Position numbers and translations under genes: made by a program
The notes under the pieces: generated by a model
The model's input: only the letters and a program-made list of their open reading frames with translations
The model's database searches: none
What the model was told of the DNA's origin: nothing
Origin: an uncultured Paracoccaceae bacterium
GTDB lineage: Bacteria > Pseudomonadota > Alphaproteobacteria > Rhodobacterales > Rhodobacteraceae
Direction: 5' to 3'
DNA length: 64,000 nt
Assembly (NCBI GenBank): GCA_913060475.1
Contig: CAJXSD010000005.1
Coordinates: 62,001 to 126,000 of the forward strand
Shown here: positions 32,852 through 50,991 of the stretch, piece after piece
Position numbering within the stretch: position 1 is the first letter of the stretch
How the letters are laid out: the number at the start of each line of letters is the position of its first letter

Positions 32852-33457
32852 CTAATCACGTGGCGAGCCAACCAATGGTTCGCGATGACCCGCGCGGATC
32901 ACATCCGGATCATAGGGTGTGCGTGCGAACACCTCGCGGACCATATCGGCGAAAAATTCGATGGGCTTGGTGTCGTAATCGGGGTCAAAGCTGGATTGAT
33001 CCCAGCGTTCGCAAAATTGCGCGCAATCCTCGAAATAGGGGCTGTCTGCATGGCGGTCGCGTTTGTTTGGATCGCCGCCCACATGGGTCGCATAATACAC
33101 CATTTGAAAATCGCCATGCGCTTGGACCACCCAAGAACATTGTTCGCGCACAAAGGGGCGCAAAATTGTGGCGGCATATTCGTCATGGTTATAGGGTGCA
33201 TAGATGTCGCCAATATCATGCAGCAGGGCCGATACAATCCAATCAATATCTGCCCCATCGCGCCACGCCCGTGTGGCCGATTGCACAGAATGACCCAGGC
33301 GGGTAATTTGATAGCCTGACAGGCTTTCGTCCAGCTCGACCAATGCCTTTAATAACCGGTCCGCGGTGCCTTTGGTATATTCGATTTCATGGGCGGTCAG
33401 AAATTCGTAATCCTCTTTGTCGCCGTCCTTCATCTGGGTGAATTTAACGTGATCCAT
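32852..33457 (-). CDS. HD-domain protein, PhnZ/MIOX-like putative diiron oxygenase
   Basis: A 201-residue HD-domain protein. Six residues that would bind a diiron centre are all present: H56 (LGHS), H80-D81 (LLHD), H91 (NHDEY), H114 (QAHG) and D153 (RWDQ). The H56-H80 spacing of 24 equals that of PhnZ (H34-H58), and WDQ resembles the WDE motif there. PhnZ and TmpB cleave hydroxyphosphonates with O2, and inositol oxygenase (MIOX) shares the fold. I infer an oxygenase, not a nucleotide phosphohydrolase; the substrate is unknown. The ATG at 33457 is nine bases after AAGGG; another ATG three codons upstream touches that site. Confidence 0.75.
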   Translation of the reverse strand: MDHVKFTQMKDGDKEDYEFLTAHEIEYTKGTADRLLKALVELDESLSGYQITRLGHSVQSATRAWRDGADIDWIVSALLHDIGDIYAPYNHDEYAATILRPFVREQCSWVVQAHGDFQMVYYATHVGGDPNKRDRHADSPYFEDCAQFCERWDQSSFDPDYDTKPIEFFADMVREVFARTPYDPDVIRAGHREPLVGSPRD

Positions 33458-33617
33458 CTGGTCCATCCCTTTCGTTTGTGGTTTTGCCTGCATCGTGCGG
33501 TCCGGATTTACGGATGTAAAGCCTGATTTGACCGCCATTTGGCCAATTTCCGTCACGGCACTGGACATTCGGTTTTGCGTTTCTAAAGTAAGGGTAAACC
33601 AATGCATGAGGCCTGCG

Positions 33618-35903
33618 ATGAAACCTTTTGGAAAATCCCAACCCATCCGGCGGATCGAGGATCAGCGATTCCTAACCGGAACGGGCCGCTATGTGGATGA
33701 TATCGCCCCCGATGGGGCGGCGGTGGCCTATTTCCTGCGCGCGCCCGTGGCGCATGCTATGATCACCACGCTGGATGTCGCGGATGCGCGTGATGCCGAT
33801 GGGGTTTTGGCTGTGCTGACCTATGACGATCTAGGGGCTGCGGGCATTGCGACCGATTTGCCGGCCGTGGTGATCAAGAACCACGATGGCACAGCGGCGG
33901 CCAATCCCAAACGGCCCCTGCTGTGCGATGGCCATATCCGCCATGTCGGCGAAGCGATTGCGGTGATTATCGCAGACACGCTGGATCAGGCCAAGGATGC
34001 GGCAGAACTGATCGAATTCGATTTTGACGAATTGCCCGTGGCGCTGGACCTGACGGCAGGTGGCGCAGCCTTGCATGCCGAGGCGGGTGATAACATGGCC
34101 TTTGATTGGGCGATTGGGGATGCAGAGCAGACCGATGCCGCCTTTGACACTGCGGCGCATGTGGTGTCACTGCAGGTCGCAGATAACCGAATTATCGCCA
34201 ATGCATTGGAACCGCGGGGCTGTTTTGCCCAGTGGGATGGCCAGAAACTGGAATTCACCGTCAACGGGCAGGGGGTATGGAACCAGAAAAACCGCCTGGT
34301 TCAGACATTGGGTTTGACCCCTGAACAGGTTCGCGTGATCAATCCTGATGTGGGCGGCGGGTTCGGGATGAAGGCGATGACCTATCCCGAATATTACGTT
34401 GTCGCCCATGCGGCCATGGCCCTGGGGCGTGCGGTGCGTTGGATGGCCGATCGCACCGAATCCATGCTGACTGATAATGCGGGGCGTGATCTGGTGTCGG
34501 ATGCCGCAATCGCGCTGGACGCGGATTTGCGCATTACTGGATATCGGATGCAAACGCGGTGCAATCTGGGGGCCTATAATTCGCAGTTTGGTCAAATCAT
34601 CCAAACCGATTTGTTCGCCAAGGTTCTGACAGGCCCCTATGACATCCCGACCGCGCATCACGCGGTGCAGGGGTTTTATACCAACACAACGCCGGTTGAC
34701 GCCTATCGTGGGGCCGGCCGCCCCGAGGCGATCTATGTTCTGGAACGCCTGATGGACCGCGCGGCGCGGGATTTGGGGGTTGATCCATGGGACCTGCGGC
34801 GCAAAAATTTCATCGCATCCGACAAATTCCCCTATCAGACGGTGACGGGGGAAACCTATGATGTGGGTGATTTCACCCGCGTGTTGGACCGTGCGTATCA
34901 GGCCGCCGATGTCGCAGGCTTTGGCGCACGCCAAGCCATCAGCGCGCAGGCCGGCCGGTTGCGCGGTTTGGGCATCTGTTATTATATCGAGAGTATCCTT
35001 GGCGCCCCCAGCGAAACCACCCGCGTGGTGTTCAATGATGACGACACCGCCACAATTTTCGTGGGCACCCAATCCAACGGACAGGGCCACGAAACGGTAT
35101 TTTCGCAATTTCTGTCCGATCAAACGGGCATTCCACTGGATAAAATCCACTTTGTCCAAGGCGACAGTGACGCCATCGCCATGGGCGGCGGTACGGGGGG
35201 ATCGCGGTCGGTTACGGTGCAAAACACCGCCACACTGAAAACGGTTGATATCATGTTGACGGCCTATCGCGCATTTTTGGCGGATAAAATGGGGGTTGAT
35301 GCGGGTGACATCACCTTTGATGACGAACGGTTCCGCGCGCCCAATTCCAACCTGTCCCCCACGCTGTTAGAGGCGGCAGCCATGGCCCGCGATGCAGGGC
35401 GCGATGATTTGCTGGACCACAGCGCCACCATCACGTTGGATGCGCGATCCTTTCCCAATGGGGCCCATGTGGCCGAGGTCGAAGCTGACCCGGACACGGG
35501 CGTGACCCGCGTTGTCAAATATACCGTGGTTGATGATTTTGGCCATCTGATCAACCCCTTGCTGGTTGAGGGTCAGGTTCATGGCGGCATTGCCCAGGGG
35601 TTGGGGCAGGCATTGAACGAACATGTCGTATTCGATGACACGGGCCAGCTGTTGACCGCCACATTCATGGATTATGCGATGCCGCGCGCCACGGATATGC
35701 CTTGGGTATCGTTTCAGACAGAATGTGTCCCATCCACCGCAAACCCCATGGGCATCAAAGGCTGCGGCGAGGCAGGCACCGTGGGGTCCATGGCCGCGGT
35801 GGCCAACGCCGTTCAAGATGCCCTATGGGATCGCGGCGTACGTCAGGCCGACATGCCCTTTACCCCGCAGCGGGTTTGGACGCTGCTGTCAAAGGGGGCC
35901 TAA
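33618..35903 (+). CDS. Molybdenum hydroxylase large subunit (form II CoxL / xanthine dehydrogenase family)
   Basis: A 761-residue molybdopterin-binding subunit of the xanthine oxidase family. It has the N-terminal ald_Xan domain (RRIEDQRFLTGTGRYVDDI), the form II active-site loop AYRGAGR (362-368, not the AYRCSFR of true CO dehydrogenase) and the catalytic Glu718 in GCGEAGTVG. It should hydroxylate a heterocycle, aldehyde or similar carbon. The usual FAD and 2Fe-2S subunit genes are not adjacent, so it is an orphan or draws partners from elsewhere. GAGG precedes the ATG at 33618. The next gene starts with no gap. Confidence 0.9.
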   Translation: MKPFGKSQPIRRIEDQRFLTGTGRYVDDIAPDGAAVAYFLRAPVAHAMITTLDVADARDADGVLAVLTYDDLGAAGIATDLPAVVIKNHDGTAAANPKRPLLCDGHIRHVGEAIAVIIADTLDQAKDAAELIEFDFDELPVALDLTAGGAALHAEAGDNMAFDWAIGDAEQTDAAFDTAAHVVSLQVADNRIIANALEPRGCFAQWDGQKLEFTVNGQGVWNQKNRLVQTLGLTPEQVRVINPDVGGGFGMKAMTYPEYYVVAHAAMALGRAVRWMADRTESMLTDNAGRDLVSDAAIALDADLRITGYRMQTRCNLGAYNSQFGQIIQTDLFAKVLTGPYDIPTAHHAVQGFYTNTTPVDAYRGAGRPEAIYVLERLMDRAARDLGVDPWDLRRKNFIASDKFPYQTVTGETYDVGDFTRVLDRAYQAADVAGFGARQAISAQAGRLRGLGICYYIESILGAPSETTRVVFNDDDTATIFVGTQSNGQGHETVFSQFLSDQTGIPLDKIHFVQGDSDAIAMGGGTGGSRSVTVQNTATLKTVDIMLTAYRAFLADKMGVDAGDITFDDERFRAPNSNLSPTLLEAAAMARDAGRDDLLDHSATITLDARSFPNGAHVAEVEADPDTGVTRVVKYTVVDDFGHLINPLLVEGQVHGGIAQGLGQALNEHVVFDDTGQLLTATFMDYAMPRATDMPWVSFQTECVPSTANPMGIKGCGEAGTVGSMAAVANAVQDALWDRGVRQADMPFTPQRVWTLLSKGA

Positions 35904-36953
35904 ATGGGGGCTTGGCGCAATCCTTTGGCCCCGATATGGGCAGGGTTGGCGCGCGTTTTGGCCACGCGGGTCAGCGATTGGTCAGGCGACCGGCCAGCCC
36001 CCGAAAAACGCATCCACATCATATTGCTAGATGGCACATTGGCGTCGTTAAAACCGGGGGCGGGGACGCATATTGGAACGCTGTATCATCTGCTAAACGA
36101 TGGTCGCGCGGACCGCAGTGTGCATTACAGCGCGGGGCTGCAATGGGGTGATTGGCGGTCCAATCTGCGAGTGATCACGGGGGCAGGGCTGGGCCACCAG
36201 ATCCGGCAGGCCTATGGGGCCTTGGCCACGCGGTATCGGCCGGGGGATGATGTCTATATCTTTGGCTATTCCCGGGGGGCCTTTGCGGCGCGGTCGTTAT
36301 GTGGGATGATCGATCGCGTGGGATTGTTGCAGGCCGATTACGCCACTGCGCGCAATGTCAATTTGGCCTGGCGGCAGTATCGCAATGGGCGTGGCTATAT
36401 CCGGTTTCGCGAAAACTTTTGCCACCCCACCGCGCAGATCCGGTTTTTGGGGGTCTTTGATACGGTCAGTGCGCTGGGGCTGCGCATTCCGGTTTTGTGG
36501 AAATTTCTGCCCGACCTTTATACGTTTCACGACCATGCGGTCAGCCGCAATGTTGACGCCAATTACCATGCGCTGGCCCTGGACGAAACACGGCTGGCCT
36601 ATGCGCCGGAATGTTGGGATTTGGATGTCATTCCGCCGGACACGGTGGTGCAACAGGTCTGGTTTCGCGGGGCCCACGGCGATATTGGCGGGCATTTGGG
36701 CACATTTGAACCGGCGCGTCCCTTGGCTAATATTCCACTGGTGTGGATGTTGGAACGCGCGGCGGACCGGGGATTGGCGCTGCCACCGGATTGGCACGCG
36801 CGCTTTGCGATGGATCCCACCGCGCCCAGCGTGGGCACTTGGCGCAAATGGGGGAAATTCCTGATTTTTCGCGCCAAGCGGCGGGTGGCCAAATCTGACC
36901 ACGAATGGATCCATTCATCTGTCGATCAAGGTGCCAGGACTGACAAGGCGTGA
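35904..36953 (+). CDS. DUF2235-family alpha/beta hydrolase
   Basis: A 349-residue protein of the DUF2235 group, which includes T6SS phospholipase-type effectors and other hydrolases. The nucleophile is Ser123 in GYSRGAFAAR, the acid probably the Asp in FDTVSALG, and the base the His in RGAHGDIGG. No type VI secretion gene is nearby. The ATG immediately follows the stop of the molybdo-subunit gene, so the two are coupled. Function unknown; hydrolase activity is inferred. Confidence 0.8.
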   Translation: MGAWRNPLAPIWAGLARVLATRVSDWSGDRPAPEKRIHIILLDGTLASLKPGAGTHIGTLYHLLNDGRADRSVHYSAGLQWGDWRSNLRVITGAGLGHQIRQAYGALATRYRPGDDVYIFGYSRGAFAARSLCGMIDRVGLLQADYATARNVNLAWRQYRNGRGYIRFRENFCHPTAQIRFLGVFDTVSALGLRIPVLWKFLPDLYTFHDHAVSRNVDANYHALALDETRLAYAPECWDLDVIPPDTVVQQVWFRGAHGDIGGHLGTFEPARPLANIPLVWMLERAADRGLALPPDWHARFAMDPTAPSVGTWRKWGKFLIFRAKRRVAKSDHEWIHSSVDQGARTDKA

Positions 36954-49615: not shown

Positions 49616-49699
49616 TAAGAAAGCCCCAATGCAGCAGATCGGCGCGAATGTCGCAACGCGGTGCCTAAGTGACGCACTGGAACGTGGGGGGGATGCGCA

Positions 49700-49729
49700 T
49701 TGGGTGCATATGTGATCCACACCTAAATT
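49700..49729 (+). promoter_or_regulatory. Candidate promoter of the sarcosine oxidase operon
   Basis: TTGGGT (49700-49705) and TAAATT (49724-49729) are 18 bases apart, 17 bases upstream of the soxB ATG. A weak match. Confidence 0.3.
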
Positions 49730-49746
49730 ATCGGATTCGAGACCAG

Positions 49747-50991
49747 ATGAAACGCTATTCTATATTTGCCGTTGCCCGCGAAGCTGCGCGCTATCACACA
49801 GGATGGGACCGTGCGTGGGCCTCTCCTGAGCCTAAGAAGAAGTACGATGCCATCATTATCGGGGCAGGGGGCCACGGTTTGGCTACGGCCTATTATCTGG
49901 GCAAAAACCACGGTATCAAAAACGTGGCTATCTTGGAAAAAGGATGGCTGGGCGGCGGCAACACGGGCCGTAACACCACCATCATCCGGTCGAATTATTT
50001 ACAAGATCCGTCAGCGGCCATTTATGAAAAATCCCGCTCGCTTTATGAAACGATGAGTCAGGATTTGAACTATAACGTGATGTTCAGCCCCCGTGGCGTC
50101 ATCATGCTGGCCCAGACCGAACACGAGGTGCGCGGATATTTGCGAACCGCGCATGCCAATGCGCAGCAGGGCGTGGCCACCGAATTCATCGGACCCGAAC
50201 AGGTGAAAAAACTGGTGCCGATCATCAATATTCATGGACCCCGCTATCCCGTATTGGGCGGTCTGTGGCAGGCGCGTGGCGGCACGGCGCGGCACGATGC
50301 AGTGGCCTGGGGCTATGCGCGGGCCTGTTCCGATATGGGTATGGATGTCATCCAGAAATGCGAAGTGACCGGCGTGCGCCGCGAAAACGGTCGCGTGGTT
50401 GGCGTTGATACGACCAAGGGTGCGATTGATTGCGACAAATTGGGTATTGTGGTTGCGGGCCACACATCTGATCTGGCGGAAATGGCTGGGTTCCGGTTGC
50501 CGATCGAATCTGTGGCGCTGCAGGCCTTGGTGTCGGAACCGATCAAACCCTGTATGGATGTGGTCGTGATGGCCAATACCGTGCACGGCTATATGTCCCA
50601 ATCCGACAAGGGCGAAATGGTCATCGGCGGCGGCACGGACGGGTTTAACAACTATACCCAGCGTGGATCGTTCCACCACATCGAAGAAACCGTGCGCGCC
50701 TTGGTCGAAACATTCCCGATGATTTCGCGCCTGAAAATGCTGCGCCAGTGGGGCGGTATCGTGGATATGACAGGCGACCGGTCGCCCATTTTGTCCAAAA
50801 CACCCGTTGATGGCGTTTTCGTCAACTGCGGCTGGGGGACAGGCGGGTTCAAGGCAATCCCAGGGTCCGGTTGGGCCATGGCCGAATTGATGGCCAAGGG
50901 TCAATCGCCGCTGACCGATGAATTCAGCATGTGGCGATTCCGCGAAGGTAAATTCATCGACGAAAGCGTCGCCGCTGGCGTTGCACACTAA
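49747..50991 (+). CDS. soxB: Sarcosine oxidase subunit beta
   Basis: A 414-residue flavoprotein subunit of heterotetrameric sarcosine oxidase, which demethylates sarcosine to glycine. It has the FAD loop IIIGAGGHGLATAYYL and the FMN-linked region GGTARHDAVAWG with a conserved His. The ATG at 49747 gives MKRYSIFAV, the usual start. First gene of soxB-D-A-G; all four subunits are present and intact. Not to be confused with the thiosulfate-oxidation sox genes. Confidence 0.96.
   Translation: MKRYSIFAVAREAARYHTGWDRAWASPEPKKKYDAIIIGAGGHGLATAYYLGKNHGIKNVAILEKGWLGGGNTGRNTTIIRSNYLQDPSAAIYEKSRSLYETMSQDLNYNVMFSPRGVIMLAQTEHEVRGYLRTAHANAQQGVATEFIGPEQVKKLVPIINIHGPRYPVLGGLWQARGGTARHDAVAWGYARACSDMGMDVIQKCEVTGVRRENGRVVGVDTTKGAIDCDKLGIVVAGHTSDLAEMAGFRLPIESVALQALVSEPIKPCMDVVVMANTVHGYMSQSDKGEMVIGGGTDGFNNYTQRGSFHHIEETVRALVETFPMISRLKMLRQWGGIVDMTGDRSPILSKTPVDGVFVNCGWGTGGFKAIPGSGWAMAELMAKGQSPLTDEFSMWRFREGKFIDESVAAGVAH

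Follow-up and report, generated by a model that had tools for sequence, protein, structure and literature searches.

We found that the gene at positions 32852–33457 of the window (the whole stretch of 64,000 nucleotides analysed here) is best explained as encoding a PhnZ/TmpB/MIOX-type HD-domain oxygenase that belongs to a separate clade and probably acts on a hydroxylated quaternary-ammonium compound. We give this reading a probability of about 0.5. It draws on the fold class of the protein, its metal ligands, a pocket specific to the clade, the operon partners of its relatives and patterns of gene co-occurrence. The parts of the reading differ in strength: oxygenase-type chemistry is predicted with good confidence, the gene context makes an onium substrate an even bet, and a route that specifically forms glycine betaine is a tentative proposal.

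A protein with the metal ligands of PhnZ

The gene and the codons discussed below are the following.

32852..33457, minus strand: HD-domain oxygenase-like protein, 201 aa by translation (Pfam HD 23.3 bits, cutoff 22; fold match PhnZ Z 17.9, TmpB 16.7, MIOX 11.2)
33290..33292, minus strand: codon of ligand H56 (PhnZ H34), 99/99 homologues, aligned with PhnZ/TmpB proteins
33215..33220, minus strand: codons of the HD dyad H80-D81 (PhnZ H58-D59), invariant in the homologue alignment and the PhnZ/TmpB comparison
33206..33208, minus strand: codon of D84, at the position of PhnZ H62, clade-diagnostic (D in 99/99 homologues, H in 5/5 PhnZ/TmpB-type comparators)
33185..33187, minus strand: codon of ligand H91 (PhnZ H80), invariant in homologues and the PhnZ/TmpB comparison
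33116..33118, minus strand: codon of ligand H114 (PhnZ H104), invariant in homologues and the PhnZ/TmpB comparison
33104..33106, minus strand: codon of Q118, where PhnZ/TmpB have a conserved Lys, clade-diagnostic (Q in 99/99 homologues, K in 5/5 comparators)
32999..33001, minus strand: codon of ligand D153 (PhnZ D161), D in every sequence with letters there

The first-pass annotation had placed the reading frame at these coordinates and on this strand, which translation confirms, and had matched H56, H80, D81, H91, H114 and D153 to the ligands of PhnZ. The six residues lie exactly where it put them, and they are conserved. The first five are identical in all 99 aligned homologues, down to ~40% identity, and D153 is identical in the 97 that have letters at that position. 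R53, Q59, D84 and Q118 are likewise invariant in this alignment. The six ligands are also common to four annotated PhnZ/TmpB-type proteins and to a Dietzia PhyH-linked HD protein, and the window protein has the MIOX/PhnZ/TmpB ligand motif as given in PMC8177086. Taking PhnZ residue numbers from a phmmer alignment, the first spacing is 24 in both proteins (H56–H80 and H34–H58), as had been claimed. The later ones are shorter than in PhnZ (10, 23 and 39 versus 21, 24 and 57) because two loops are absent. The resemblance drawn between the terminal ERWDQ and the WDE of PhnZ stands as an alignment, since the segment falls on R-x-W-D-E, but Arg158 is replaced by E150 and Glu162 by Q154, and it is not supported as a special signature.

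Family models and fold

Pfam HD (PF01966) scores just above its gathering cutoff (23.3 bits versus 22), placing the protein in the HD superfamily, and the three NCBIfam models of phosphonate oxygenases (TIGR03276, NF049941 and NF052439) stay far under their curated cutoffs (31.3/214.6, 26.1/300 and 23.6/300 bits). We built an AlphaFold2 model from 43 orthologues (pLDDT 87.1, pTM 0.83). Foldseek returned ten matches at E <0.001, every one of them PhnZ or TmpB. VIA-align superposed the model on PhnZ (4MLN/4N71) with Z 17.9 (rmsd 2.7, 153 residues), on TmpB (6NPA) with Z 16.7 and on MIOX with Z 11.2 (2HUO) and 10.2, whereas all hydrolases gave Z ≤8.1. Therefore, the known oxygenases are clearly set off from phosphohydrolases, and the structure prediction against PhnZ, TmpB and MIOX that had been proposed beforehand as a check comes out in favour of an oxygenase. 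The superposition and the sequence equivalences suggest that the six ligand residues cluster in the modelled protein. By analogy with known members, they would form a two-iron, probably mixed-valent site.

Most HD proteins are metal-dependent phosphohydrolases, and the window protein could be a nucleotidase, a diadenosine polyphosphatase or similar. It belongs to the same superfamily, with a Pfam HD score barely over the cutoff, and dinuclear sites are also possible in YqeK-type hydrolases (PMC8177086). We regard this as improbable given the gap between the hydrolase folds and PhnZ, the operonic coupling of relatives to oxygenases, and the fact that no phosphohydrolase model in NCBIfam reached its own cutoff with this protein. 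The earlier choice of an HD-family oxygenase over a hydrolase is thus upheld by invariant ligands, by a fold nearest to PhnZ, TmpB and MIOX, and by the translational coupling of relatives to 2-oxoglutarate hydroxylases.

A pocket that differs from those of the phosphonate enzymes

PhnZ, an (R)-2-amino-1-hydroxyethylphosphonate oxygenase, contacts the amino group of its substrate through Glu27 and the hydroxyl through His62 (PMC7916636), and shares a YxxE loop with TmpB (PMC8177086). We aligned the window clade with the four annotated PhnZ/TmpB-type proteins and the Dietzia protein. All substrate-side positions compared differ between the two sets, and the split is clean. From PhnZ/TmpB to the window protein, E27 becomes Y49, H62 becomes D84, K108 becomes Q118 and R158 becomes E150, where we take K108 and R158 of PhnZ to be substrate or anion contacts. 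Further, E or D162 is replaced by Q154, and Q31 (M in TmpB) by R53. A few distant members of the clade have F at 49, and Q or H at 150. The YxxE loop is absent throughout the clade (the window protein has L46 and Y49 there), and two loops of the phosphonate enzymes, of 13 and 17 residues, are missing. The clade itself is split from PhnZ/TmpB-type proteins with support 100/99.

The different pocket, the missing loops and the separate clade argue against a phosphonate substrate. A diverged but otherwise ordinary PhnZ/TmpB phosphonate oxygenase would explain why these are the nearest solved structures and why Phn-HD, at 31 bits, scores highest among the named NCBIfam models. It would not explain the loss of the YxxE loop, H62, K108, R158 and both insertions, nor scores so far under the curated cutoffs (31 versus 214.6; 26 versus 300). 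Identity to PhnZ is only ~23%. The genes speak in the same direction: neither the window locus nor the relatives inspected have phosphonate genes, save for one PstS-like phosphate-binding protein gene that follows the HD gene in one locus (L163). Hence we find this alternative highly improbable, and the protein very probably acts on a non-phosphonate substrate. The suggestion of the first-pass annotation that the substrate may be new is in this sense backed by the loss of every phosphonate-side residue compared and of the two loops.

MIOX shares the ligand motif and the fold class, and its cleavage of a C–C bond in a diol offers a plausible template for what the window enzyme would do. The protein might be an inositol or other polyol oxygenase, as PGAP implies in naming a Phaeobacter orthologue 'inositol oxygenase family protein'. 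The Pfam MIOX model (PF05153) scores 21.9 bits, under its gathering cutoff of 25, identity is ~16%, and the structural match is weaker than to PhnZ and TmpB. The family also lacks an association with inositol catabolism genes. Across the class, iolB occurs with the HD gene about as often as expected (9 versus 8.3, all HD genomes), and we rejected the inositol link. We consider a MIOX-like enzyme very improbable.

Many relatives are coupled to 2-oxoglutarate hydroxylases

PhnZ works with the hydroxylase PhnY and TmpB with TmpA, a pairing that MIOX does not share. The relatives of the window protein have comparable partners. In 42 of 98 loci, the gene immediately upstream has the same orientation and encodes a PhyH-family Fe/2OG dioxygenase; it overlaps the HD gene by 4 bp (ATGA-type) or 1 bp in most of the 31 pairs measured. 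These 42 pairs are not independent, because the Rhodobacteraceae loci are largely syntenic. The partner matches Pfam PhyH; against NCBIfam and the PDB it gives weak matches of various kinds.

Elsewhere the upstream neighbour, abutting or adjacent, is a TauD-family protein resembling TmpA and gamma-butyrobetaine hydroxylase. Four loci from separate families of the class (L151, L155, L158 and L163) have this arrangement, and so does a Pseudomonas plasmid (L194). Two of these partners scored by HMM are intermediate between the two families, with 335 bits for TmpA (cutoff 400) and 259 for gamma-butyrobetaine dioxygenase (cutoff 415). In the four checked, the positions of what we take to be the trimethylammonium cage of human gamma-butyrobetaine dioxygenase stay aromatic (Y177 is F/W, W181 is F, Y194 and Y366 are Y). 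N191 and N292 of the human enzyme, presumably the carboxylate-binding Asn, are replaced by D and S in 4/4. Together with the changes in the HD pocket, this means that both enzymes of the pair have lost the residues that would be expected to bind an anion. This sets the pair apart from TmpA and TmpB, an (R)-1-hydroxy-2-trimethylaminoethylphosphonate oxygenase with the same ligands: the HD clade lacks the phosphonate-side residues and loops of TmpB, and the TmpA-like partner lacks the two Asn with which the gamma-butyrobetaine dioxygenase family binds the anion. Two sister HD proteins have different partners, PhyH in L150 and a TmpA-like protein in L155, which suggests that the two kinds of hydroxylase are exchangeable.

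Association with carnitine, betaine and choline genes

In several relatives the gene neighbourhood points to onium compounds. The HD gene lies within carnitine operons in four loci (L134, L135, L162 and L164). In L134, for example, the gene order is BKACE, HD, carnitine dehydrogenase/thioesterase. Such operons already have a complete dehydrogenase route, so that the HD step would be either redundant or directed at another compound. On the Pseudomonas plasmid (L194), the HD gene is beside genes of choline uptake and oxidation, for a choline-binding protein, choline dehydrogenase and an aldehyde dehydrogenase. L158 has a gene for a GbcA-like glycine betaine monooxygenase near its HD gene, and L151 one for a DMSP demethylase. 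The neighbours of further relatives are a fatty-acid hydroxylase with a PanB-like protein, purF/gshA, or nothing obvious. The first of these arrangements is a unit on a plasmid (L193:8001-10483), in the order HD, fatty-acid-hydroxylase-family and PanB-like gene with a divergent LysR gene; Phaeobacter, Octadecabacter (L036) and a Paracoccaceae MAG (L042) have all or some of this unit as well.

We analysed co-occurrence in 386 genomes, 49 of which have a close HD homologue, with counts that ignore shared ancestry and genome size. On these terms, carnitine dehydrogenase is present in 36 of the 49 (8.8 expected) and a TmpA-family protein in 41 (9.1 expected). The control, iolB, is present in 8 (3.6 expected).

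The same HD-oxygenase chemistry could act on a non-onium substrate, such as another diol, or a 2-hydroxy acid or lipid that PhyH produces, in which case alpha-oxidation would give a one-carbon-shorter acid and carbonate. PhyH is indeed the commonest partner in the orthologue group of the window gene, its family includes alpha-hydroxylases, and a fatty-acid hydroxylase-family gene lies beside some orthologues. Still, orthologues of the same clade (L134 and L135) are in carnitine operons, carnitine dehydrogenase and the TmpA family co-occur strongly with the HD gene, and the sisters L150 and L155 suggest that PhyH and TmpA-like partners can replace one another. We find a non-onium substrate somewhat unlikely.

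Proposed reaction

For the onium-directed oxygenase that we favour, the following course would apply by analogy with PhnZ, TmpB and MIOX. H56, H80, D81, H91, H114 and D153 would hold two irons, bridged by D81. The hydroxylated substrate would chelate one iron through its hydroxyl, while O2 on the other would take a hydrogen from the hydroxyl-bearing carbon. The adjacent C–C (or C–X) bond would then be cleaved to give a carboxylate, with no need for an external reductant. The substrate is probably a quaternary-ammonium alcohol or diol, hydroxylated and similar to carnitine or betaine, that has neither a phosphonate nor a carboxylate where it faces the iron. Its cleavage would yield glycine betaine or a similar acid and thereby supply the glycine-betaine pool. 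For many relatives, the Fe/2OG hydroxylase, either PhyH or TmpA/gamma-butyrobetaine-hydroxylase-like, would make the substrate of the HD enzyme. The HD protein and such a partner may possibly form an undescribed two-step oxidative pathway in which C–C cleavage turns a quaternary-ammonium alcohol into glycine betaine, although we hold this only tentatively. If true, the pathway would be the carbon-cleaving counterpart of TmpA/TmpB, in about one-third of the sampled alphaproteobacterial genomes.

The window locus and its genome

The window gene belongs to a Rhodobacteraceae orthologue group that holds both PhyH-linked and carnitine-operon members. Its own locus has only a divergent Mo-hydroxylase gene and no hydroxylase partner. 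Hence a ready-hydroxylated substrate would be expected there. In the genome of the window (81% complete), we found no close PhyH partner (best match 29% identity) and no match to a TmpA-like protein. The carnitine operon of this genome is elsewhere (L133, G000:C6:60000-76000), and a short-chain dehydrogenase gene and a small lipoprotein-like gene take the position, between BKACE and carnitine dehydrogenase, that HD has in L134. A gene for a sarcosine oxidase beta subunit (49669-50991, plus strand; TIGR01373, 631 bits) is ~16 kb from the HD gene. Sarcosine oxidase is the usual end of betaine catabolism, and its proximity lends at most weak support to a betaine context. The neighbourhood was also described as free of phosphonate-uptake and inositol genes, which is true; iolB is on the same contig, ~60 kb off (C5:34840).

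The divergent side of the locus has two features.

33458..33617, no strand: intergenic region between the divergent genes, 160 bp, in which TTTAC-GGAT-GTAAA is at chance level by shuffles and by comparison with relatives
33618..35903, plus strand: orphan Mo-hydroxylase large subunit, best NCBIfam match glyceraldehyde dehydrogenase alpha (570 bits, cutoff 790)

The divergent orphan gene and the 160-base gap are as first claimed. The inverted repeat TTTAC-GGAT-GTAAA is present at 33507-33520, but it does not hold up as a meaningful element: a 5-bp inverted repeat arises in 46% of shuffles of the gap and this one is missing in the nine relatives examined, so we do not regard it as significant and rejected it as an operator. 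The Mo-hydroxylase is form II CoxL or glyceraldehyde dehydrogenase-like, without adjoining genes for FAD or Fe-S subunits. Its divergent arrangement with the HD gene is kept in 33 of 98 loci. Despite this, we rejected the pairing as evidence of a functional link, because valS and a DUF2235/Tle1-like gene share the synteny of this region. The latter (35904-36953, plus strand; PF09994/DUF2235) encodes a Tle1-like alpha/beta-hydrolase kept beside the Mo-hydroxylase in Rhodobacteraceae, and no other secretion genes were noticed.

Distribution of the clade

Only three HD-domain oxygenases, MIOX, PhnZ and TmpB, are named in a review (PMC8177086), and a curated model exists for a fourth, hydroxymethylphosphonate dioxygenase. 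In the literature searched, which covered few subscription papers, we found no description of the present clade, and its members bear no annotation beyond 'HD domain-containing' or 'inositol oxygenase family' protein. The same metal site with a different pocket, in about one-third of the sampled alphaproteobacterial genomes, would mean that such chemistry is not confined to phosphonates and inositol. An onium substrate would add a step to betaine and carnitine turnover, and the partner genes offer a way of testing for the substrate.

Relatives at E <0.001 are present in 129 of 387 alphaproteobacterial genomes, including several streamlined ones of 1.2–1.6 Mb, and in 348 stretches of GTDB contigs. 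Plasmids of Pseudomonas, Burkholderiales and Acinetobacter also carry them. A viral or phage origin was considered and rejected, since IMG/VR and phage records hold no relative. On the Pseudomonas syringae plasmid pB76-81 (L199:8001-8428), the HD homologue is split into two matching pieces with no annotated gene, and thus looks like a decayed copy.
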